From positions 1 through 26,113 of IMG/VR virus record IMGVR_UViG_3300048065_000516: a stretch of 26,113 nucleotides of DNA; one strand, given 5' to 3'. The notes under the pieces were generated by a model, which saw nothing but the letters and a program-made list of their open reading frames with translations, did not search any database and was not told the DNA's origin. A program made the translations under genes and the position numbers. This DNA is from a virus. Shown here one piece after another: positions 4,367 to 16,045 of this stretch (positions are counted from its first letter, which is position 1; the number at the start of each line of letters is the position of its first letter).

Positions 4367-4707
4367 CGGTTGTCTCCTGAGCCTTTGATAAGGTCTAGTT
4401 GCATACGCCTGTCGAGCTTACGTAGGTTCATGTCAGCTACAGACGAAAGATCGAACTGGAACTGAGCCGCGAGGTTGGCTAAGTACCAAAGAACATCACC
4501 AGCTTCCTTCATGACCTCGATGCGCTGATTGTAGTTCATATCAGCTATGTGACCCTCATGGTCACGTATGTGCTTCTTTAGCTTGTCACAGACTTCACCT
4601 GTCTCTGATGCCAGTCCAAGTGCTAGGTATTCGATCTTGCTATCATCAACGATAAAGGTGGACTCAGCCTTCAGTTGGTATTCATCAAGTGTCAATGCGT
4701 TGCTCAT
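4363..4707 (-). CDS. MazG-like nucleotide pyrophosphohydrolase
   Basis: A 114-residue all-alpha NTP pyrophosphohydrolase. The metal-binding ExxE and ExxD pairs are E35/E38 in LASETGEVCDKLKKHIRD and E68/D71 in KEAGDVLWYLANLA. MazG-type enzymes hydrolyse (d)NTPs to monophosphates; in marine phages they are thought to adjust nucleotide pools or remove non-canonical nucleotides, and a proposed effect on ppGpp has not held up well. It is a single-domain form, about half the length of bacterial MazG. Start ATG 4707 has AGGAGGG just upstream and overlaps the upstream gene by 4 bp. It sits between a conserved small protein and the polymerase, in line with nucleotide-supply genes being grouped with replication here. 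Confidence 0.88.
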   Translation of the reverse strand: MSNALTLDEYQLKAESTFIVDDSKIEYLALGLASETGEVCDKLKKHIRDHEGHIADMNYNQRIEVMKEAGDVLWYLANLAAQFQFDLSSVADMNLRKLDRRMQLDLIKGSGDNR

Positions 4708-7864: not shown

Positions 7865-10609
7865 TTACAGGAAGCAATAGTCGCTTTTTAGGACTTGCTT
7901 CAGATCGAGTGTTCCTTTGGCTGGAACCTCTGGTAATTTAGCTTTCTCTGGATGATCTAGTTGAGCGACAACCTGATCTTTCAGTCGCTCGTATAGACAC
8001 TCGCCTTCATACTGTTCGACAAATGCCTCACGTACAGCATTGAACATCTCAGCAGTGTCGGCTGGTGTTGTTGCAAAGCTGTCATGGATCAAGAAGAAAT
8101 CCTTGATGCCATACTTGTCGAAGCATTTAAGAACTGTTGCATGTAGATGAGAGCTGTCGAGGCTATGAGTATGATTGGCGGCACATGCGGCATTAGATTT
8201 ACGCGCATCGACCACATCATGTATGTCGTCTTTGATTGTCACTTGGCTTCTTTTGATGTGACCAAACTCTTTGTCATACAAGTAAACCTTGATAGCTTTA
8301 GAGATACGTTTGTTGTACCGATTGACGACAGGAAAACCCATTGGCGTTGTCCAAGTCATCATCTTGTTCTCGTTGCTACACGCCTCACATAGTTTCTGGA
8401 TAAATCCCATTCCTTCGTTGGCACCTCTGACGACCTCGTTGACAGCATCCCAGCTTTTCTTAGCTAAGTAACTGGCGGCGGCTTGACCTTTGTCTAACCC
8501 CAGACACTCACCTGTCTCCTCATCGATCTTCTCGACAGCAAATGGATTAACAGTGTGTCCTTCCCAGTGACCATCACTGGTGATCGCATCATTGATAGGC
8601 TTCATGAAGTCAGTCTTGATCTGCTCACCAAAGCCATACAGATTGGAACCGTAGTTCTTAGTCATCACATTGCGCTTCAAGGTCTTGCGACCAACACGAA
8701 ACTTCTGCCAAGCCTCGCGCATCTCTTTGTTAGACTCAGACTTATCAGCATCTATCTTCTGTCTAGCAACCTCTGCAACAGCCTCATATAAGTCCTGTGG
8801 CTTATCTGATGGTGTCAGGTTGACCAAAGCACCCTCAGCCTCGTTCAAACCAAGCGCACTGAAGTGCTGGAGTCCTGAGTTGGAACCATCGAGGCCACAT
8901 GGAAACCCAGACTCATACTCGTAGCCGTAGGTGAATACATTATGTATCTCGATACAGGCCGATAGGAAGCCAAAGGGCTTGTCTGCGTGGCTCCAGTATA
9001 GCTTGGTAGCATCATCGCCATCGAAGCTCTCACGGAAGTCCCTAGCGACCTCTAGAATGCTTTCAATGTTGTCTGTGACCCACTCAAGTCTGTCGCTGAT
9101 TGATGCTTTACTGATCTTATTGAAATCACCTAGGTCAGCGCACTTCAAAGCAATCCATTGCAAACCTTCTTCACCGACTGGCTTCTTGTTGTGCAAGAGC
9201 ATCATCGACTTGATGTGGTCTGAGCGTTGGTGACTGAAGTTAGCGACAGGATACACTCTGCCTCTGAAATCCCACGATGCACCCACCCAGAAAGCCTTTG
9301 TAGGCAGGTTGGCAAGTTCTCTGGCAGTTCGTAGGTCTTGAGTCTTTAGAGCCAGCCCACCGTCAATCTCGCGGTTCTTATTGAACACCTCTCTGGCTCG
9401 TATGACCCAGCCCTTCTTGTCTGCTTTAGACAGTTCCGACCAGTTGTTAGGAAAAGCTAACTTGTCGAGCTTAGTGGCTCTTGGAAACTTAGAGAAACAC
9501 TTGTTGTTTTCCCATGCCCACTCGACAGCCTCTAAGATAGGTACATTGATCTCAAAGGGTGTATCTTGGATCAAGTTCAAGGCTCGTAGCATCTCACTCA
9601 AAGAACCATCTGCAATAGCCCTACGCACCATCTTCTGTTGCTTCGGGTTGGCACCTCGTACCAGTGGCACCTGTGCTCCTAGAGCTGAGTCCAGATAGAC
9701 ACCAGCAGTTCTCTCATATGGGTTCTGGTTCTTCAGATCATCAAAGGTCTGCCACTGCACTGGTGGCACTGACATTGGTGTAAACATAGGTTCCAACCAA
9801 GATGCTTCCTCGTTGAGTACCTCTAAGCGTTCTAGTTCATCATCAGTCATGGCTAGTTCAAAGGTTCCTAGCTCCTGTCGAGTCTTAGCGTCATACTCTT
9901 GCTCCGACCAAGCTATACCGACACGCTTAGATGTCTTAACACCTCGTTTACTGTATGTATTCTTCTCCCAGACTTCAAAGAGGTTGGCTGACTCCAGCAC
10001 TGCGTTCATAAGCAAAGAACCAACCTTCACACATAGGTCTTTAGACCAAGGTTCTTTTGTAAGTCCTTCCTTGGTTGCAATGGCTTTCAGTGCGCTTTTG
10101 CGATACTTGACGGAGCTATGCTCTTTCATCACCTTGTTATAGACTCTTTGCTCTAGCTCCTTGTTTTCACTGCGGAGCCATCGACCCCACTGTTCCATCT
10201 CTACAGCACGACCTAGCTCTACCAAGGTACTCGCTAGTGTTCTTTGACGACCAACAGAGTCTAAGCATATCGACAAAGCTATTACTGACATAGTTCCAGT
10301 AGGAATATCTTTGATCTCATTGAACCAAGTAAACTGTCTGCCACTGCCAGAGTCACCTTGGTTACTTATGACAGCATCGAGGTACTTCTGCACTGCGGCT
10401 TGCTTAGTGTCGATAACAGACTGAGCGTTTTGCTGTGTGGAGATGTTCTTGTTCTTAGAAAGTCTCTTTAGATACCTGCGGCGACCACGCAAAGACATTA
10501 CTTTCTCACGTCTAAGTTCTTGGATAACTTCTGGTGAGTTCTGGTATGCCTTGTGTAATTCCTTCAGTTTATCGAAGGGATTATCAGTGGTGTTTTGGGT
10601 ATCTAGCAT
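7865..10609 (-). CDS. T7-like single-subunit DNA-directed RNA polymerase
   Basis: A 914-residue phage RNA polymerase that would transcribe phage genes from its own promoters. All catalytic motifs match T7 RNAP (883 aa): D574 in CGLDGSNSGLQHFSA (T7 D537), K645 and Y653 in RKTLKRNVMTKNYG (T7 K631, Y639), and H842/D843 in FFLIHDSFATTPA (T7 H811, D812). FWVGASWDFRGRVYP (440-454) and the C-terminal SDYCFL, comparable to T7 SDFAFA, are also conserved. The specificity-loop region is about residues 770-800 and does not obviously match T7. The start at 10609 is chosen because AGGAGAG lies 5 bases upstream; the frame extends 10 codons further. The gene has its own upstream regulatory region below a terminator, so it may be controlled separately from the integrase operon. 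Confidence 0.97.
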   Translation of the reverse strand: MLDTQNTTDNPFDKLKELHKAYQNSPEVIQELRREKVMSLRGRRRYLKRLSKNKNISTQQNAQSVIDTKQAAVQKYLDAVISNQGDSGSGRQFTWFNEIKDIPTGTMSVIALSICLDSVGRQRTLASTLVELGRAVEMEQWGRWLRSENKELEQRVYNKVMKEHSSVKYRKSALKAIATKEGLTKEPWSKDLCVKVGSLLMNAVLESANLFEVWEKNTYSKRGVKTSKRVGIAWSEQEYDAKTRQELGTFELAMTDDELERLEVLNEEASWLEPMFTPMSVPPVQWQTFDDLKNQNPYERTAGVYLDSALGAQVPLVRGANPKQQKMVRRAIADGSLSEMLRALNLIQDTPFEINVPILEAVEWAWENNKCFSKFPRATKLDKLAFPNNWSELSKADKKGWVIRAREVFNKNREIDGGLALKTQDLRTARELANLPTKAFWVGASWDFRGRVYPVANFSHQRSDHIKSMMLLHNKKPVGEEGLQWIALKCADLGDFNKISKASISDRLEWVTDNIESILEVARDFRESFDGDDATKLYWSHADKPFGFLSACIEIHNVFTYGYEYESGFPCGLDGSNSGLQHFSALGLNEAEGALVNLTPSDKPQDLYEAVAEVARQKIDADKSESNKEMREAWQKFRVGRKTLKRNVMTKNYGSNLYGFGEQIKTDFMKPINDAITSDGHWEGHTVNPFAVEKIDEETGECLGLDKGQAAASYLAKKSWDAVNEVVRGANEGMGFIQKLCEACSNENKMMTWTTPMGFPVVNRYNKRISKAIKVYLYDKEFGHIKRSQVTIKDDIHDVVDARKSNAACAANHTHSLDSSHLHATVLKCFDKYGIKDFFLIHDSFATTPADTAEMFNAVREAFVEQYEGECLYERLKDQVVAQLDHPEKAKLPEVPAKGTLDLKQVLKSDYCFL

Positions 10610-10633
10610 GAACACTCTCCTGTGTGCTGTGGT

Positions 10634-10650
10634 TAACACTTATTGTGTTA
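10634..10650. promoter_or_regulatory. Operator-like dyad upstream of RNA polymerase
   Basis: A perfect inverted repeat with arms TAACAC (10634-10639) and GTGTTA (10645-10650), spacer of 5 bp. It lies 25 bp before the RNA polymerase start and abuts the 16-mer shared with the divergence region, which is where a repressor would block initiation or early elongation. Function is inferred from position and symmetry. Confidence 0.45.
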
Positions 10651-10665
10651 GGTGGACACAAAACT
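10650..10665 (-). promoter_or_regulatory. Shared 16-mer, copy 1 (candidate phage promoter)
   Basis: The minus strand reads AGTTTTGTGTCCACCT, identical over 16 bp to 14884-14899 on the plus strand. Each copy points into a gene-free leader: this one toward the RNA polymerase gene, the other toward the virion genes. I saw no third exact copy in the window. A promoter for the phage-encoded polymerase is the simplest reading, but a recombination site is also possible because the two copies are inverted around the integrase segment. Confidence 0.5.
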
Positions 10666-10712
10666 AAACTACTGAAATCATTAAGTTTACGTTTTAGGAG
10701 ATTTAGACTGTT

Positions 10713-10758
10713 AATCAGGTCTTTTGTCCCCTTGGATGCCCCAAGCGAACCCCTGATT
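10713..10758. other. Nested dyads in the RNA polymerase leader
   Basis: Outer arms AATCAGG (10713-10719) and CCTGATT (10752-10758) enclose an inner hairpin with arms CTTGG (10731-10735) and CCAAG (10741-10745). On the leftward transcript this would fold just downstream of the terminator and upstream of the RNA polymerase gene. It could be a leader structure or a protein-binding site. Confidence 0.4.
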
Positions 10759-10766
10759 GTAGGCAT

Positions 10767-10805
10767 AAAAAAAGAGACCTCAATAGCACGTGGCTATCAG
10801 GTCTC
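10767..10805 (-). terminator. Rho-independent terminator for the leftward integrase operon
   Basis: On the minus strand a hairpin with outer stem GAGACCT/AGGTCTC (plus-strand 10774-10780 and 10799-10805) and inner stem ATAGC/GCTAT is followed directly by seven T residues (10767-10773 as A on the plus strand). It would end leftward transcripts after the integrase and regulator genes, before the RNA polymerase gene, so RNA polymerase needs its own promoter or antitermination. Confidence 0.88.
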
Positions 10806-10812
10806 AGTGTCG

Positions 10813-10833: not shown

Positions 10834-10925
10834 GCTACTTCTGTATTAAAGTGTACCAGCTACATAGGTCTGTGATACCAGCTATCTTAATCTTTAGTAG
10901 TAGCTATAGTAGCTATAGTAGCTAT
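10833..10925. repeat. Six AGCTA boxes, last three as exact 9-bp tandem repeats
   Basis: AGCTA occurs at about 10833, 10858, 10880, 10902, 10911 and 10920, with steps of 25, 22, 22, 9 and 9 bp. The last three form exact tandem copies of AGTAGCTAT (10899-10925), and two earlier ones share TACCAGCTA (10854-10862, 10876-10884). The array runs into the stop codon of the regulator gene. The near two-turn helical spacing suggests iterons or protein-binding sites. Confidence 0.6.
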
Positions 10926-11446
10926 GTTTCTAATGCTAAGTCAGTCCTATTATGTAGGAACCACCAATACTCTGTGACAAGGTTTCTCAAGCGTGCTACA
11001 TCATGTGTATGTCGGTATATGTCTTTTACATAGGTCTCTTGGAACAAATCTAGCAATTCATCTGATGCTTGATAGAGTTTTGCTGATGGCTCCTCAATCC
11101 AGCCAGCATCTAAACACTCCTTGATCATTGTTGTCGCTGACTTGTAAGTTATTACTAGCTCTGATGCTACATCCACACTGCTGACTGGTGTTTTTAAGAT
11201 TAGACTCTTGCACATCAACCTAGAAAACATCTGACGTGTGTCGGTGCTTGTGAAGTACCTAACTAACTTGGAGGTATGCTGGGTAGTACGTTCTTTTCTG
11301 AACCTGTAACAGTACAGATCAATGTCGCAGACTGCCGCAGTGTAGGCATCCCAGATACGGCGTCTAGTCTCATGTCGTTGCTCAGGTGGCTCAATATCCA
11401 AGTCTGCCGAGTGAAGCAGTTTCATATATTCTACTTTGTTGACCAT
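10922..11446 (-). CDS. Putative winged-helix DNA-binding regulator
   Basis: A 174-residue protein I do not recognise by name. Residues about 74-135 (FSRLMCKSLILKTPVSSVDVASELVITYKSATTMIKECLDAGWIEE...) read like a MarR-type winged helix: a helix, then SVDVASELVITYKSATTMIKEC as helix-turn-helix with a recognition helix, then GWIEE leading into a wing. The N-terminal 50 residues are Arg- and acidic-rich helix. The ATG at 11446 follows the integrase stop by 3 bp, with GGGAG inside the integrase end. Being paired with the integrase and upstream of RNA polymerase makes it the best candidate in the window for the lysogeny or early/late switch regulator, possibly acting at the dyads at 14931-15039 or 10634-10650. 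The last codons overlap the AGCTA repeats. Confidence 0.65.
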   Translation of the reverse strand: MVNKVEYMKLLHSADLDIEPPEQRHETRRRIWDAYTAAVCDIDLYCYRFRKERTTQHTSKLVRYFTSTDTRQMFSRLMCKSLILKTPVSSVDVASELVITYKSATTMIKECLDAGWIEEPSAKLYQASDELLDLFQETYVKDIYRHTHDVARLRNLVTEYWWFLHNRTDLALET

Positions 11447-11449
11447 AGT

Positions 11450-12340
11450 CTAAATGCTCCCATTTCCTAAAGCCTGACTCATGCCAGCTACTTGTTTCTG
11501 TGTATCGTCTTTGAGCTTTATATACTTGTTAGTAGTTTTCAAGTCAGAATGACCTAGCATCTTACCAATAACTGTAGATGTGATATTTAGATCATTGGCA
11601 AACCTTGTCGCGGCAGTGTGTCGCCAGATGTGGAAAACAATGGTCTTGTCGTCACTCCCGAACACCTTGTGCCGCATCTCGCCCCAGACTTTGTAAAAGG
11701 TCTTGATACTGAAGTAGTCCCAGATCGCCTCTAGAGCCTCTACAGCGGCCTCTGAGGTGTCGTTAAGGGGTACGTACCTCTGCTTCTTGCCTTTACCATT
11801 CCACTTGGTCTCAGGTAGCCATAGCCACTTAAATCCATCGTCATCAACCTCGACCTTGGCCTTACCCTCGTAGAGCTGGAGTATCTCCCCAAGCCTCATG
11901 CCTGTGTGTAGCGATAAAAGACTCATGTGATAGACATAGGGTGCCTCGCGGTTCGACTTAAGCCAGCTTAGTATCTTGGCTATCTCTGTGTCGGTGAAGA
12001 ACCTCGGCCTCGCGTTGTCCTCGTCATACTGATCGATGCTAATGGGATACTTGACGTAGTGATTGTCGAAAGCATACCTCACGACCTTGCCTACCGCGAC
12101 TCCATGCCTGTTGGCTGTGGTCTCGGCTAGGTCATGGTCTTGTATCAGGTGATCCATATAGAAGTGTACGTCTGCGGCTCTGATGTCGTCTATTGGCCTG
12201 TCGCCATTATTGTCGAACTCTGCAAACCTTCGTATCGCCATACGGCAATACTCGGAGTGCTTAGGCTTCACACGCTTATATATGATCTTGTGGTGTCGCT
12301 CGTGAAACTGAGAGAATGTATATGTGTTAGCTTTAGTCAC
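11450..12340 (-). CDS. int: Tyrosine recombinase (phage integrase)
   Basis: A 296-residue site-specific tyrosine recombinase that would integrate the phage at a host tRNA gene. The N-terminal core-binding (SAM-like) domain spans about 1-105. The catalytic domain has R149 (LHTGMRLGEILQL), a candidate Lys at 179 or 185-186 in the beta-hairpin TKWNGKGKKQRYVPL, H237 and R240 (HIWRHTAATRFA), H264 (LGHSDLKTT) and nucleophile Y273. All six positions are present, so it should be active. It begins with GTG at 12340 behind GGGGAG (7-base spacing), overlapping the upstream gene by 8 bp. Unlike many integrases, it lies about 2.3 kb from its probable attP, with a run of small genes between. Confidence 0.95.
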   Translation of the reverse strand: MTKANTYTFSQFHERHHKIIYKRVKPKHSEYCRMAIRRFAEFDNNGDRPIDDIRAADVHFYMDHLIQDHDLAETTANRHGVAVGKVVRYAFDNHYVKYPISIDQYDEDNARPRFFTDTEIAKILSWLKSNREAPYVYHMSLLSLHTGMRLGEILQLYEGKAKVEVDDDGFKWLWLPETKWNGKGKKQRYVPLNDTSEAAVEALEAIWDYFSIKTFYKVWGEMRHKVFGSDDKTIVFHIWRHTAATRFANDLNITSTVIGKMLGHSDLKTTNKYIKLKDDTQKQVAGMSQALGNGSI

Positions 12341-12647
12341 AATATGGCTCCCCTGTTGCTGTGTCGATTAGCTCTTGATCAAAGCAGTTGTTCATCGACC
12401 AGAAAGCTCGTTGTAGCTTCCTTGGTGTTTCGGTGTCTGTTAAGTCGAAGCACTCAGTCCATTCACACATAAAGTGTCTAAGTGCATTACGAGCCTCGAT
12501 GACAGCCTTGAGCTGGTCTTGTGATAGTGCCGCTATGCCATCTCGCCTTATTAGCTCTACAGTTGATTGACGTGTCGCGTGGAACTCCTCGCGCTGTTCT
12601 TCTGTCAGTGTCGCCCAGTTCTCTGGGTAATCGATATAGTCACTCAT
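12333..12647 (-). CDS. Hypothetical protein, 104 aa
   Basis: An acidic, helical 104-residue protein (YPENWATLTEEQREEFHATRQSTVELIRRDGIAAL...) with four Cys residues late in the chain (MCEWTECFDL, NNCF, YCD). I do not recognise a family. The start at 12647 has GAGGAG upstream and overlaps the stop of the previous gene by 4 bp (ATGA); its own stop overlaps the integrase GTG by 8 bp. Translational coupling to the integrase suggests a shared expression window rather than a shared mechanism. Confidence 0.75.
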   Translation of the reverse strand: MSDYIDYPENWATLTEEQREEFHATRQSTVELIRRDGIAALSQDQLKAVIEARNALRHFMCEWTECFDLTDTETPRKLQRAFWSMNNCFDQELIDTATGEPYCD

Positions 12648-13000
12648 TGGTTAGTCTCCTCTTCTGTGTCATCGTAAGGGCGACTGTGGTCATGGTCTTT
12701 CTCGCCCTCAAAAAGCCAAGCATCAATACTCATACCGCTTCCTGTCATATGAACTGCACTTTGAGATATATTGTATAAGTTAGCGTCCCAGATGTGCATC
12801 CCCTTGGCTGGTCTCCAGTTGCTCACAGGATTATCAAACAGGTATTCATGAGTAAGTAAGTCGTGCATGTCACAACCACTACTGACCATACAGTCGCCCA
12901 TAGCCAACATGCCGCTATAGTCTTCCGTTATGTCCTTGAACTCGATCTCGTAGTCACGCTCGAATACATGACGAACAGTTAGTTTACGTTTAACAGTCAT
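12644..13000 (-). CDS. Hypothetical protein, 118 aa
   Basis: A 118-residue protein of unknown function with a short basic N-terminus (MTVKRKLTVRHVFERDYEIEF) and a strongly acidic, His/Asp-rich tail (FEGEKDHDHSRPYDDTEEETNQ). The first part reads as beta strands. I chose ATG at 13000, which has AAAGGAG about 9 bases upstream; an in-frame GTG at 13009 is too close to that site. It overlaps its neighbours by 11 bp upstream and 4 bp downstream. Acidic small early proteins are often host-takeover or DNA-mimic proteins, but nothing here shows that directly. Confidence 0.72.
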   Translation of the reverse strand: MTVKRKLTVRHVFERDYEIEFKDITEDYSGMLAMGDCMVSSGCDMHDLLTHEYLFDNPVSNWRPAKGMHIWDANLYNISQSAVHMTGSGMSIDAWLFEGEKDHDHSRPYDDTEEETNQ

Positions 13001-13223
13001 GATGGTCACTCTCCTTTAGTTCAAGTTGTGTCGCACGTTTACGCTCGGCTACGTGGGCGTCAGCTAGTGTCGCCATGCGCCTCAGCTCGTCCCTAGCGAA
13101 CTGTCGTGACTCGACAGACTCCGCACGTGTCAGCACCTCGATGAGTGCTGGCAAGATACGCTCCCAGCGTGGCTTGAAGTCGACACATTGCTGTGTCGTG
13201 GTGTCGTTGTTACTGCTGGTCAT
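12990..13223 (-). CDS. Hypothetical protein, 77 aa, with NDTTTQQ start
   Basis: A 77-residue helical protein. The core (RWERILPALIEVLTRAESVESRQFARDELRRMATLADAHV) resembles small conserved proteins seen in marine phages, but I cannot name a family. Its N-terminus SNNDTTTQQ shares NDTTTQQ with the next upstream gene product, and the shared DNA is a 21-bp near-exact repeat. The start at 13223 has AAGGGAG upstream; it overlaps the upstream gene by 14 bp and the downstream one by 11 bp. Confidence 0.72.
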   Translation of the reverse strand: MTSSNNDTTTQQCVDFKPRWERILPALIEVLTRAESVESRQFARDELRRMATLADAHVAERKRATQLELKESDHHDC

Positions 13224-13438
13224 CTTGGTTGCTCCCTTGCTGTTGCTGTAGGATGAAATCTAGGCGTTGGCCTCGCACGACCACATTCATGTCGATCAGC
13301 TTCTTGAGGTGTAGCTTCTCGGCCTCGCTCAGTCCCTCTAGCTGTGACTGCATATTATCCAGTGTCGGGTTGTCTAAGATCGACTGCATAGCCGCTATAA
13401 GAGTGTCGCGGCTAAACTGCTGTGTCGTAGTGTCGTTG
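13189..13438. repeat. 21-bp direct repeat pair in two neighbouring genes
   Basis: Copies at 13189-13209 and 13418-13438 match at 20 of 21 positions (core CTGTGTCGT then GTGTCGTTG, G/A difference in the middle). Each encodes the NDTTTQQ segment at the start of a separate small gene, while the rest of the two proteins is unrelated. Each copy contains GTGTCG twice. This looks like a copied start segment or a recurring DNA-level motif. Confidence 0.75.
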
Positions 13439-13446
13439 GTTGTCAT
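13210..13446 (-). CDS. Hypothetical protein, 78 aa, Gln-rich tail
   Basis: A 78-residue helical protein (RDTLIAAMQSILDNPTLDNMQSQLEGLSEAEKLHLKKLID) with a Gln-rich C-terminus (LQQQQGSNQDDQQ). The N-terminus TNDTTTQQ repeats that of the downstream gene. No family recognised. The start ATG at 13446 has GAGGATC upstream and overlaps the previous stop by 4 bp (ATGA). It is part of the coupled small-gene run between the integrase and the attP-like site. Confidence 0.7.
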   Translation of the reverse strand: MTTNDTTTQQFSRDTLIAAMQSILDNPTLDNMQSQLEGLSEAEKLHLKKLIDMNVVVRGQRLDFILQQQQGSNQDDQQ

Positions 13447-13679
13447 CTCTTGATCCTCTTCTCGATTGTTGGTGTCGCGTCCCAGTCCCTACGCTTCATG
13501 CGCCACTTCTGATTAGTGATAGGCTTGACGCATCTGACGTGCTTATGACCCACGACAGCCCAGATAAGGTGGGTGCCGCAGATCGGGTACTTGACGTTGT
13601 AAAGGTCAGCTTGGAATAGCCTCGCGGTGCGCCATGTCGCCTCGCGTGGCCTCGGTGTTTTGTGGTTAGGTCTGGTCAT
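13443..13679 (-). CDS. Hypothetical basic protein, 78 aa
   Basis: A 78-residue, strongly basic protein (RPNHKTPRPREATWRTARLFQ at the start, KWRMKRRDWDATPTIEKRIKR at the end). It has two Cys (YPICGTHLI, VRCVKP) and three His in between, a loose pattern that could bind a metal but does not match a zinc finger I know. The charge suggests nucleic-acid binding. The start at 13679 overlaps the previous stop by 4 bp; the longer frame to 13760 has no ribosome site and runs through the neighbour. Confidence 0.68.
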   Translation of the reverse strand: MTRPNHKTPRPREATWRTARLFQADLYNVKYPICGTHLIWAVVGHKHVRCVKPITNQKWRMKRRDWDATPTIEKRIKR

Positions 13680-13867
13680 TCTACAAGCCACCCCTCGTCC
13701 AAGAGTGTCGCGGCTAGGCTCTCGGCATAGCGTGGCTCGACCACAAGGGCATCGCCCCACCAGTGCCCCTCACTGTTGTTGCTGAGGTGCCTAGATGCGT
13801 TGGAGTGTGTCGGCCTCACCAGAAACAGACTGTCGTGGTTCTCGAATGTGAAATCGGGGGCAATCAT
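13676..13867 (-). CDS. Hypothetical protein, 63 aa
   Basis: A 63-residue protein (IAPDFTFENHDSLFLVRPTHSNAS...HWWGDALVVEPRYAESLAATLLDEGWLVE) of unknown family. The mix of beta strands and a C-terminal helix (EPRYAESLAATLLDEGW) fits a small alpha/beta domain. The start at 13867 overlaps the stop of the 42-aa membrane ORF by 4 bp (ATGA) and has GGGGGTG upstream; the alternative start at 13936 lies inside that ORF in another frame. Its stop overlaps the next gene by 4 bp. Confidence 0.68.
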   Translation of the reverse strand: MIAPDFTFENHDSLFLVRPTHSNASRHLSNNSEGHWWGDALVVEPRYAESLAATLLDEGWLVE

Positions 13868-13992
13868 GATGCACCCCCAGACAGCACTACGATCCAGTGC
13901 CAGTAGGTATACTCGACTCCCCAGATGTTCATCCAAGGCAGGGTTGCGGCGACCAGTAAAAGGCCGCCCAGTAATTCACGGTAAAGGTTCAT
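13864..13992 (-). CDS. Small membrane protein, 42 aa
   Basis: A 42-residue ORF found by reading the strand directly: MNLYRELLGGLLLVAATLPW, then MNIWGVEYTYWHWIVVLSGGAS. It has a hydrophobic segment at about 7-24 and a second aromatic, hydrophobic one at 29-39, so it should sit in the membrane. It exactly fills the gap between two genes: it starts 2 bp after one stop, with GGGGAG upstream, and its TGA overlaps the next ATG. It could be a superinfection-exclusion, holin-like or host-takeover peptide; its place in the early arm argues against a main holin. Confidence 0.7.
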   Translation of the reverse strand: MNLYRELLGGLLLVAATLPWMNIWGVEYTYWHWIVVLSGGAS

Positions 13993-13994
13993 GG

Positions 13995-14306
13995 CTAAAA
14001 CTCCCCGACAATAAAGGCTGATGAATTAGGCACCTCGATGACCGTTGTGTGGTCTCTAATGGTGTCTAAGTCGGGGTAATCCTCGGAGTCGTAGCTCTCG
14101 TGGAACTCATCGATGCAAGCGTATTCGCAGAACTCGCAATCGGTGGCGATAACGTCTAGCCTGTCGTGACCGCCCCCAATGTCATTGGAACGCTCGACAA
14201 GGTACGCATAAAGCGCACCAAGCCCAGCATATGACCAAGCCTCAGCCCTGCCGTGGTTGTGGAAGGCATCGCGGAATTGTGACTCGTTGATCTCTTGATA
14301 AATCAT
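13995..14306 (-). CDS. Conserved phage protein of unknown function, 103 aa
   Basis: A 103-residue acidic protein with a pattern I have seen in phage genomes: FRDAFHNHGRAEAWSYAGLGALYAYL, then LDVIATDCEFCEYA and a final short region with DYPDL. The conserved core F..F...GR...(W/F)SY.GL.AL(Y/F).YL and DVIA..CEF..Y is typical of this unnamed family, which occurs in diverse tailed phages without known function. The ATG at 14306 overlaps the first gene's stop by 4 bp and has GGGGGTC upstream. Confidence 0.8.
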   Translation of the reverse strand: MIYQEINESQFRDAFHNHGRAEAWSYAGLGALYAYLVERSNDIGGGHDRLDVIATDCEFCEYACIDEFHESYDSEDYPDLDTIRDHTTVIEVPNSSAFIVGEF

Positions 14307-14587
14307 GACCGACCCCCAGCGTTGAGGTTAGCAAGTGCAATCACGCCCGACTTGATATCGCGCTTGATCTGCGCTGTGTCCATGCCCAGAAACTTGTTGC
14401 GATACTTGCTAGTCGTGACGCTGTAATCCCAGCGGTCAGCGTCTAGGGTAACGACCCCAGCCGATATATGCCGCTTGGCAATCACTGTCTGATATGATTG
14501 GAAGTATTCGTATTCGCCATCGGTTATAATGAACTGATTGGCTACTGGTGCGCCTGTGCGCCCTGTCATTTGTCTGACTTGTGACAT
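14303..14587 (-). CDS. Conserved phage protein of unknown function, 94 aa; first gene of the leftward arm
   Basis: A 94-residue protein with the sequence VTLDADRWDYSVTTSKYRNKFLGM and a tail of small helices ending LANLN. The WDYS.TT.KYRN.FLG motif is shared by many small phage proteins of unknown function. It has the strongest ribosome site in the region, AGGAGG with 8-base spacing at 14596-14601, next to a short dyad. It is the first leftward gene after the tRNA-Thr half at 14641, so its transcript comes either from a promoter in the divergence region or, in a prophage, from the rebuilt host tRNA gene. Confidence 0.82.
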   Translation of the reverse strand: MSQVRQMTGRTGAPVANQFIITDGEYEYFQSYQTVIAKRHISAGVVTLDADRWDYSVTTSKYRNKFLGMDTAQIKRDIKSGVIALANLNAGGRS

Positions 14588-14600
14588 CGCTTAATCCTCC

Positions 14601-14617
14601 TGCGATACTGTGTCGCA
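14601..14617 (-). promoter_or_regulatory. Dyad next to the Shine-Dalgarno of the first leftward gene
   Basis: Arms TGCGA and TCGCA (14601-14605, 14613-14617) with a 7-nt loop end at the AGGAGG ribosome site of the 94-aa gene. The stem borders, and by one base touches, that site on the leftward mRNA, so it could modulate translation or be a protein-binding site. Confidence 0.4.
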
Positions 14618-14640
14618 AGGGATAAAAACATATGCCTAGA

Positions 14641-14690
14641 TGGTGCTGGCGGAGAGACTCGAACTCCCAACCGCCCGATTACAAATCGGG
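14641..14690 (-). other. 3' half of a tRNA-Thr(UGU) gene; probable attP core
   Basis: On the minus strand the segment holds an anticodon stem-loop CCCGA-TTTGTAA-TCGGG (anticodon TGT), a 5-nt variable loop CGGTT, a T-arm GGGAG-TTCGAGT-CTCTC, a 3' acceptor strand CGCCAGC, discriminator A and encoded CCA at 14641-14643. The structure is canonical from position 27 to the 3' end. No D-arm and no 5' acceptor strand GCTGGCG is found upstream, so it is not a full tRNA. A tRNA 3' half including CCA in a genome with a tyrosine integrase is the classic attP identity segment, which restores the host tRNA on integration. Crossover would be expected near the anticodon loop. Confidence 0.88.
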
Positions 14691-14820
14691 AACCACCAAG
14701 GAATAACCCTTGCTTGAGATCACAGTGAATCAATTTGACAAGTATTGCAAGCACTATTTTACAAACAGCGACACAAAAGCAGATCGGCTGGTAATCCTGC
14801 GCTTTGCAAGGTGTAGACCT

Positions 14821-14883: not shown

Positions 14884-14899
14884 AGTTTTGTGTCCACCT
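14884..14899 (+). promoter_or_regulatory. Shared 16-mer, copy 2 (candidate phage promoter)
   Basis: AGTTTTGTGTCCACCT on the plus strand, identical to the minus-strand copy at 10650-10665. It is 460 bp upstream of the first virion gene and points toward it. Two exact copies ahead of the RNA polymerase gene and the late arm fit promoters for the phage RNA polymerase, but no transcription data are available. Confidence 0.5.
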
Positions 14900-14930: not shown

Positions 14931-15039
14931 TACCTAGGTGATCATATGAAAGTAAGTTGACTGTAGTCAGTACCACCACAGATAAGAACAATAGGACTTA
15001 GATCACCTAAGTATTAAGACAACTTAGATCACCTAAGTA
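14931..15039. promoter_or_regulatory. Three operator-like GATCACCTA sites
   Basis: Two exact 18-bp copies of ACTTAGATCACCTAAGTA lie at 14996-15013 and 15022-15039, with 26 bp between starts (about 2.5 helical turns). Each has symmetric arms ACTTAG/CTAAGT. A diverged inverted copy (GATCACCTAGGTA when read on the minus strand) lies at 14931-14943. I saw no other copies in the window. Placement around a sigma70-like promoter between two divergent arms is what a phage operator cluster looks like. Integrase arm sites are the main alternative. Confidence 0.65.
14957..14986 (+). promoter_or_regulatory. Sigma70-like promoter for the rightward arm
   Basis: TTGACT (14957-14962, 5 of 6 to consensus) is followed after 18 bp by GATAAG (14981-14986, 4 of 6). 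The two exact operator-like repeats begin 10 bp downstream, overlapping where transcription would start. It would drive the virion genes with host polymerase when derepressed. Confidence 0.45.
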
Positions 15040-15358: not shown

Positions 15359-16045
15359 ATGGCACTAGAATCAGGCACCTATATAAACAGCCTTGTAGCC
15401 ACCAACCCAGTAGCAACTGATGGTCTGGCTCAAGCAGACGACCACATGCGACTAATCAAGGCTACAGTTCTAGCGTCTTTTCCTAATATCACTGGAGCCA
15501 TGACGGCCACACAGGCGGTACTCAACGGTATAGACGCTCGTATGACAGCCTTGGAAACAGCCTTTGCCACAGGCACCAAGATGCTATTCCAGCAGACCAC
15601 AGCCCCTACAGGCTGGACTAAGGACACCTCAAGCAACGATAAGGCACTCCGCGTTGTATCAGGCACTGTCGGTTCTGGTGGTTCCGCTGGGTTCTCATCT
15701 GCCTTCTCCAGTATCACCCCTGCTGGTTCCATCAGCAACACCGTGGCTGGCTCCACTGCTTCTCATGCTATCACAGTAAACGAGATGCCAGCTCACTCCC
15801 ACGCTATCACAGGTACATACAAACGTGATGATGGAAGTGGTGGTGGCGGTCATTTCCCACATGGATCAGCTCGTAGTACATCAACTAGCATCTCAGGTTT
15901 CTTAGATATCACAGCCAGTAATACTGGTGGTGACGCAGGTCACACTCACGGCGTAGGTACACTTGCTGTATCTAGCACCTTCTCAGGTACATCTATTGAC
16001 CTAGCTGTAGCCTACGTAGATGTGATCATTGCGACACGAGACTAG
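15359..16045 (+). CDS. Tail collar / tail-fibre-tip-like virion protein
   Basis: A 228-residue protein, first gene of the rightward arm. Residues 15-50 (NPVATDGLAQADDHMRLIKATVLASFPNI) match a short N-terminal segment common in marine podovirus tail proteins. The second half carries the phage collar-like pattern: LFQQTTAPTGWTKDTSSNDKALRVVSG (about 75-101), then EMPAHSHAI and GDAGHTHGVG with conserved His pairs, ending YVDVIIATRD. Such domains form trimeric fibre tips that bind receptors, with His residues often coordinating metal. Gly/Ser/Thr-rich low-complexity stretches separate the blocks. The ATG has AAAGGAAA upstream. The exact virion role (short fibre or tail tip) is inferred. Confidence 0.78.
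   Translation: MALESGTYINSLVATNPVATDGLAQADDHMRLIKATVLASFPNITGAMTATQAVLNGIDARMTALETAFATGTKMLFQQTTAPTGWTKDTSSNDKALRVVSGTVGSGGSAGFSSAFSSITPAGSISNTVAGSTASHAITVNEMPAHSHAITGTYKRDDGSGGGGHFPHGSARSTSTSISGFLDITASNTGGDAGHTHGVGTLAVSSTFSGTSIDLAVAYVDVIIATRD

Follow-up and report, generated by a model that had tools for sequence, protein, structure and literature searches.

The DNA stretch analysed here, a virus record of 26,113 bases which we call the window, probably contains the phage attachment site (attP) of an integrating marine T7-like podophage, arranged in such a way that integration would change which promoter serves the leftward operon. If this is true, the integrase and regulator operon of a marine phage would sense its own integration by DNA geometry alone and would be taken over by the promoter of a host tRNA gene. 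As a class, tRNA promoters are often growth-rate regulated. The idea holds up and can be tested, but what it describes is the phage version of a mechanism already known rather than a new one: promoter exchange through attP has been proven in some conjugative elements and apparently has not been described for viruses of this kind, to which it would now extend. It also names a host gene, the tRNA-Thr gene of SAR116 bacteria, and an exact junction to be sought in metagenomes.

According to the proposed course of events, the 50-bp attP core would recombine with the tRNA-Thr(UGU) gene of the host and make the tRNA whole again. The leftward operon (small genes, integrase and MarR-like regulator) would come to lie on the strand of this tRNA, 53 bp past its end, where the host tRNA promoter could reach it. 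The DNA between the divergent phage operons, which carries the candidate leftward promoter, the candidate phage promoter and the operator-like palindromes, would end up at the opposite end of the prophage. A hairpin in the leader should keep translation of the first gene low, and readthrough should be stopped or limited by the terminator that lies between the regulator gene and the phage RNA polymerase gene. The attL predicted in this way consists of the host tRNA-Thr 5' half (GCTGGCGTGGCTCAATTGGTAGAGCA), the core, and then TCTAGGCATATG...CCCTTGCGAC. The features concerned are collected in Table 1.

Table 1. Positions in the window of the features discussed in the text
Feature	Position	Strand	Basis
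attP core, a 50-bp tRNA-Thr(UGU) 3' half that includes CCA; same sequence as host attB	14641..14690	-	
Leader from tRNA CCA end to first start codon, 53 bp	14588..14640	-	
Leader hairpin pairing the Shine-Dalgarno region (AGGAGG, 14596-14601)	14594..14623	-	folding, covariation read by eye
Upstream segment GCAAGGGTTAT, complementary to CCCTTGC of the leader; integration would remove it from the operon	14703..14713	-	
TTTGTGTCGCTGTTTG, leftward and promoter-like, outside the core; may serve as promoter in the free phage	14762..14777	-	conserved in relatives
Candidate phage-RNA-polymerase promoter GTTTTGTGTCCACCT, ahead of tail operon	14885..14899	+	conservation, shuffles
Second GTTTTGTGTCCACCT copy, directly ahead of RNA polymerase gene	10650..10664	-	
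Two operator-like palindromes ACTTAG-ATCAC-CTAAGT, 26 bp apart, in divergent intergenic region	14996..15038	.	
First gene of divergent tail/structural operon	15359..16045	+	
First leftward gene, 94 aa, phrog_21575	14303..14587	-	
Further small genes of leftward operon, mostly with overlapping starts and stops	12333..14306	-	
Tyrosine integrase, 296 aa, no room for N-terminal arm-binding domain	11450..12340	-	
MarR-like winged-helix protein, 174 aa (the 'regulator' of the earlier note)	10922..11446	-	
Intrinsic terminator closing leftward operon, stem -16.0 kcal/mol followed by seven T	10761..10805	-	
Single-subunit (T7-like) RNA polymerase gene	7865..10639	-	

The tRNA-Thr half, its host gene and its viral relatives

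Read on the minus strand from 14690 to 14641, the window sequence is CCCGATTTGTAATCGGGCGGTTGGGAGTTCGAGTCTCTCCGCCAGCACCA, which comprises the anticodon arm with UGU, the variable loop, the T arm, the acceptor 3' strand, the discriminator A and CCA. CCA ends at position 14641 and the first leftward gene starts with its ATG at 14587, so the earlier note was right in placing a tRNA-Thr 3' half on the strand of the leftward genes with its CCA end 53 bp from the first start codon. ARAGORN reported no complete tRNA in the window, as is expected for half a gene, and a complete or functional phage tRNA was ruled out.

We searched a 40-base pattern from the core against a GTDB-based genome collection and obtained exact matches in nine genomes, every one within a complete tRNA-Thr(TGT) gene, which argues that the match is not due to chance. 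A host tRNA-Thr(UGU) gene ending in the 50-bp segment, which the earlier note had proposed to look for, thus exists, and mostly under SAR116 labels: seven of the nine matching records are labelled Candidatus Puniceispirillum or SAR116 cluster, the other two carrying general labels only. When up to two mismatches are allowed, 27 of the 136 SAR116-order genomes contain the core segment. Judged from these sequence matches, the host of the window phage is likely a member of SAR116 (Puniceispirillaceae).

Nine other IMG/VR contigs carry the same core, leader and geometry as the window, and a pattern made from the leader alone retrieved from IMG/VR the same nine and no others. In all nine the core is flanked on one side by the leftward operon and on the other by the tail operon, which is the same and divergent throughout, and all keep the orientation and the short leader. 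Their number is small, and they do not count as independent cases: the three in the clade of the window amount to about one observation. The attP geometry is not an assembly artefact, since nine other viral contigs show it, and an assembly chimera was ruled out, the core, the leader and the divergent tail operon being common to these contigs. A tenth, distant relative (L073, a record of 42,205 bases), whose RNA polymerase is 54% identical, has the same layout with a tRNA-Arg-like segment. This segment resembles tRNA-Arg(UCU), ends in the T loop (L073:4096-4221, minus strand; L117), and was not found in the 136 SAR116-order genomes. A single-sequence search of IMG/VR for relatives of the integrase confirmed none; relatives were obtained through the RNA polymerase and a 537-aa structural protein.

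Regarding classification, the single-subunit RNA polymerase and the T7-like replication genes fit a marine phage of the Autographiviridae type, and the tyrosine integrase together with an attP identical to a host tRNA segment fits an integrating marine T7-like phage. The closest named DNA polymerases belong to marine Autographiviridae of Roseobacter and SAR11 (CRP-125, HTVC168P and others), at 43-45% identity. The HMO-2011 type was considered and not adopted, as the nearest named DNA polymerases are of the Autographiviridae type and the Pfam matches are without the DnaJ insert.

Candidate promoters on the two sides of the core

The leftward genes follow the order small genes, tyrosine integrase, MarR-like protein, terminator, T7-like RNA polymerase and T7-like replication genes, and the tail and ejection genes run rightward from 15359. 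The integrase gene is not the first behind the tRNA half, several small genes intervening over about 2.3 kb. For the MarR-like protein, structure prediction gave a model with pLDDT 79 and its elements in winged-helix order, the best PDB matches of which are of the MarR family (E 0.004, probability 0.99); its MarR/HTH Pfam matches are weak.

On the host side, eight of the nine loci have a putative promoter shortly before the tRNA-Thr gene, recognised by its resemblance to the consensus, with TTGACC, 16-17 nt and a TAAAAA-like box; these boxes lie upstream of the core and outside it. On the phage side, TTTGTGTCGCTGTTTG stands at the same place in all nine relatives amid surrounding sequence that is poorly alignable; it is present in a single copy in the window and has TTTTGTGTC in common with the candidate phage promoter. 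The suggestion that integration would cut away a free-phage promoter lying beyond the core thereby gains a concrete candidate. The candidate phage promoter GTTTTGTGTCCACCT itself occurs exactly twice in the window. The part TTGTGTCCACCT within it is conserved in nine of nine relatives, with none of 100 shuffles giving as many matches, and the core of the copy ahead of the RNA polymerase gene is also kept in the relatives L011, L013, L015, L016 and L018; from this we infer that it is the promoter of the phage's own RNA polymerase. All these promoter calls are based on conservation and resemblance only. A scan of the region for sigma-70-like promoters found 8 where 6.0 were expected, no better than shuffles, and none on the minus strand of the leader. 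The palindromes in the divergent region are perfect (14996-15012 and 15022-15038) and may possibly be operators for the MarR-like protein.

It was also observed that the RNA polymerase gene has a strong terminator ahead of it, followed by a copy of the candidate promoter for that same polymerase (window 10640-10810).

The 53-bp leader contains no intrinsic terminator, the terminator-like matches being elsewhere or on the other strand, and the earlier statement that none separates the tRNA half from the operon is borne out to this extent. The readthrough expression postulated in the earlier note is favoured by the orientation and by this lack of an intrinsic terminator before the operon, but the idea needs two amendments: readthrough would end at the terminator before the RNA polymerase gene, and the leader would damp expression of the first gene. 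As for the exchange of promoters, its parts are in place, namely the host tRNA gene, a putative promoter outside the core, the orientation and a promoter-like element beyond the core, but its product was not found: neither 136 genomes from the host order nor the viral contigs contained an attL of the window phage. We count this against the exchange, together with the lack of a close RNA polymerase (none among 61 genomes of the family), a leftward promoter which is only a conserved motif, and the distance of about 2.3 kb to the integrase gene.

Searches of SAR116 genomes by RNA polymerase, structural protein and junction likewise revealed no prophage of the window type, and this bears on the question whether there is a stable prophage at all. 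The phage might integrate through attP only for a time while it grows lytically, like T7-like cyanophages, which enter tRNA-Leu without stable lysogeny (PMC8776855), and the tRNA promoter would then be irrelevant. We hold this to be rather unlikely, since the MarR-like regulator and the operator-like palindromes suggest some repression and a relative does reside in a host genome. This relative, in the SAR116-family genome G024, is a distantly related integrated prophage (structural protein E 2.9e-293, RNA polymerase 32% identical) which sits in tRNA-Lys between att repeats of about 50 bp, some 40 kb apart. The cyanophage precedent nevertheless means that the prophage stage of the window phage is perhaps brief.

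The core of the G024 prophage is the tRNA-Lys 5' half, and its integrase gene lies directly behind the host upstream DNA and that 5' half. The same promoter-side position of the integrase in so distant a prophage is one of three points which speak against regarding the geometry of the window as incidental. On such an account a core made of a tRNA 3' half simply must rebuild the tRNA, the orientation of the operon has no regulatory role, and the operon in the prophage is either silent, ended early by Rho or read from an internal promoter. That a tRNA followed by an integrase on the same strand is the commonest of four arrangements, with 736 of 1,273 pairs (PMC2951348), agrees with this account, and so does the buried ribosome-binding site of the first gene, which favours Rho termination of a readthrough RNA. 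The other two points against it are that the orientation and the short leader are kept in every one of the nine relatives, and that a conserved promoter-like element lies precisely on the side which integration removes. Weighing these, we regard an incidental geometry as rather unlikely. As a separate observation, the G024 repeats (L113:4616-4697 and L111 about 4516-4566, that is G024:C1 about 384,615-384,697 and 424,515-424,565) cover the 5' half of tRNA-Lys(UUU), so that the intact tRNA gene now relies on a promoter at the phage end.

The leader hairpin

The leader forms a predicted hairpin which is strong but is not followed by a U-run, and which buries the Shine-Dalgarno sequence of the first gene; such a hairpin over the ribosome-binding site had been missed in the earlier note. 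Of the 24 gene starts in the window, that of the first leftward gene ranks lowest both in folding energy (-28.5 kcal/mol) and in accessibility of its Shine-Dalgarno region (0.18). The hairpin is retained in relatives with compensating changes, two outer pairs differing on both sides between two groups according to a reading by eye rather than with a counting tool; in the window group its register is shifted.

The segment GCAAGGGTTAT, which lies immediately before the core, has a sequence complementary to the 5' strand of the hairpin. In the window, 3.4 kcal/mol are needed to open the Shine-Dalgarno region when the phage upstream region is present and 9.1 kcal/mol when the host tRNA 5' half takes its place, and none of 200 shuffled upstream regions gave a cost as low as 3.4. 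L002 and L005 behave like the window, the effect is weak in L006, and it is little or absent in L003, L004, L007, L008 and L010; it is strongest in L073 (2.6 with the upstream segment and 12.4 without it, with none of 150 shuffles as low). These folding predictions support an effect of the upstream segment unevenly and are at most suggestive. They could reflect an RNA switch that integration cuts apart, in which CCTTG of the leader would pair either with the Shine-Dalgarno region (off) or with the segment upstream of the core (translation possible). On integration the host tRNA 5' half would replace that segment and the off fold alone would remain, so the first gene would be translatable in the free phage and shut in the prophage. 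We think such a switch quite unlikely. A simple equilibrium switch in all relatives was ruled out, the fold with the buried Shine-Dalgarno sequence being the minimum-energy fold in the attP and attL contexts alike and the upstream effect being clear only in the clade of the window and in L073.

The same complementarity may have a reason at the DNA level, since repeats of CTTGYGNC surround the core. This motif has 11 occurrences on both strands of the whole window. In eight of the nine phages two or three copies are found no further than about 100 bp from the core, and in L005 there is one; the downstream copy lies 10-11 or 21 bp from CCA, values about one helical turn apart. The motifs around the core (CTTGYGNC, CTTG and inverted repeats) may accordingly be sites for recombination or regulatory proteins instead of RNA elements, with the conserved leader and first codons (ATGACACAAGT) forming an attP arm that overlaps the gene, a reading favoured by the clustering and helical spacing just described and by first codons which unrelated first genes have in common. 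It fits less well with an integrase that has no room for an N-terminal arm-binding domain, with the asymmetric bulges of the leader dyad, which are more easily explained by an RNA hairpin than by a DNA dyad, and with compensating changes that preserve pairing with the Shine-Dalgarno region. We regard it as less likely than not; it concerns the leader and is compatible with the exchange of promoters.

The first leftward gene varies among the relatives, with the leader and often the first codons kept. In L002-L010 unrelated first genes open with the same codons (ATGACACAAGT or similar) after the conserved leader, as if they had been swapped in behind a fixed start.

Comparison with known integrating elements

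The nearest precedent for the proposed exchange is ICEKp1, in which, as demonstrated by experiment, int is expressed from the host tRNA-Asn promoter in the integrated state and from a promoter of the other end in the excised state, and stem-loops of the leader damp expression (PMC13023037). Its authors report analogous promoter switching for ICEclc and ICEEc1, and suggest that a sequence of the far end could pair with the leader stem-loop (PMC13023037). The window shares with ICEKp1 the insertion at a tRNA 3' end (here read from attP and the host gene), genes behind the tRNA on the same strand, and leader stem-loops. For the element promoter that in ICEKp1 lies on the far side of attP and serves the free form, the window offers a candidate counterpart, the promoter-like element at 14762-14777. 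Two traits of that system recur here, the host tRNA promoter outside the core (eight of nine host loci, by consensus) and the lack of a sigma-70-like site between the tRNA and the first gene; a third, int as the first gene behind the tRNA, does not, the window operon opening with small genes and having int about 2.3 kb off. Further differences are that the window element belongs to the T7-like phages and encodes an RNA polymerase, that its leader has 53 bp against 161 bp, and that its hairpin buries the ribosome-binding site whereas that of ICEKp1 resembles a terminator.

KplE1 argW-intS, one of the 'STI' pairs, is alike in having the tRNA first and the integrase on the same strand, but its intS has its own autoregulated promoter overlapping attL (PMC2951348), whereas the integrase of the window is distal and the leader has no sigma-70-like site. 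The T7-like cyanophages P-SSP7 and S-TIP37 (PMC8776855) also have a tyrosine integrase and an attP copying a host tRNA segment; in them attP lies downstream of int and corresponds to tRNA-Leu, whereas in the window it heads the operon, corresponds to SAR116 tRNA-Thr and has tail genes diverging from it.

The marine Autographiviridae CRP-125 and HTVC168P show the same order of RNA polymerase, SSB, endonuclease, primase and polymerase genes, and CRP-125 has a MarR-annotated gene beside int. In the stretch of CRP-125 compared, early and replication genes have one direction and int is directly ahead of the RNA polymerase gene, whereas the window has a terminator and a candidate promoter between the two and a divergent tail operon. 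The Roseobacter phage CRP-3 (PMC6918029) is a marine podovirus which has been shown to insert into the 3' end of a tRNA gene of its host, tRNA-Met; it is of the HMO-2011 type with a different tRNA.

Apart from the window phage, the SAR116 tRNA-Thr gene resembles an integration hotspot, as seen downstream of it in L023, L025, L028, L029 and L031. Other elements at this gene have integrase-type genes about 60 bp downstream which point away from the tRNA, a placement in keeping with the one proposed for the window phage; such a gene is complete in L031 and present in L028 and L029 as an open frame with the N-terminal DUF6538 part only, and paired short repeats, e.g. GTAGACCATATGGTAGACCA, precede integrase-type genes there.
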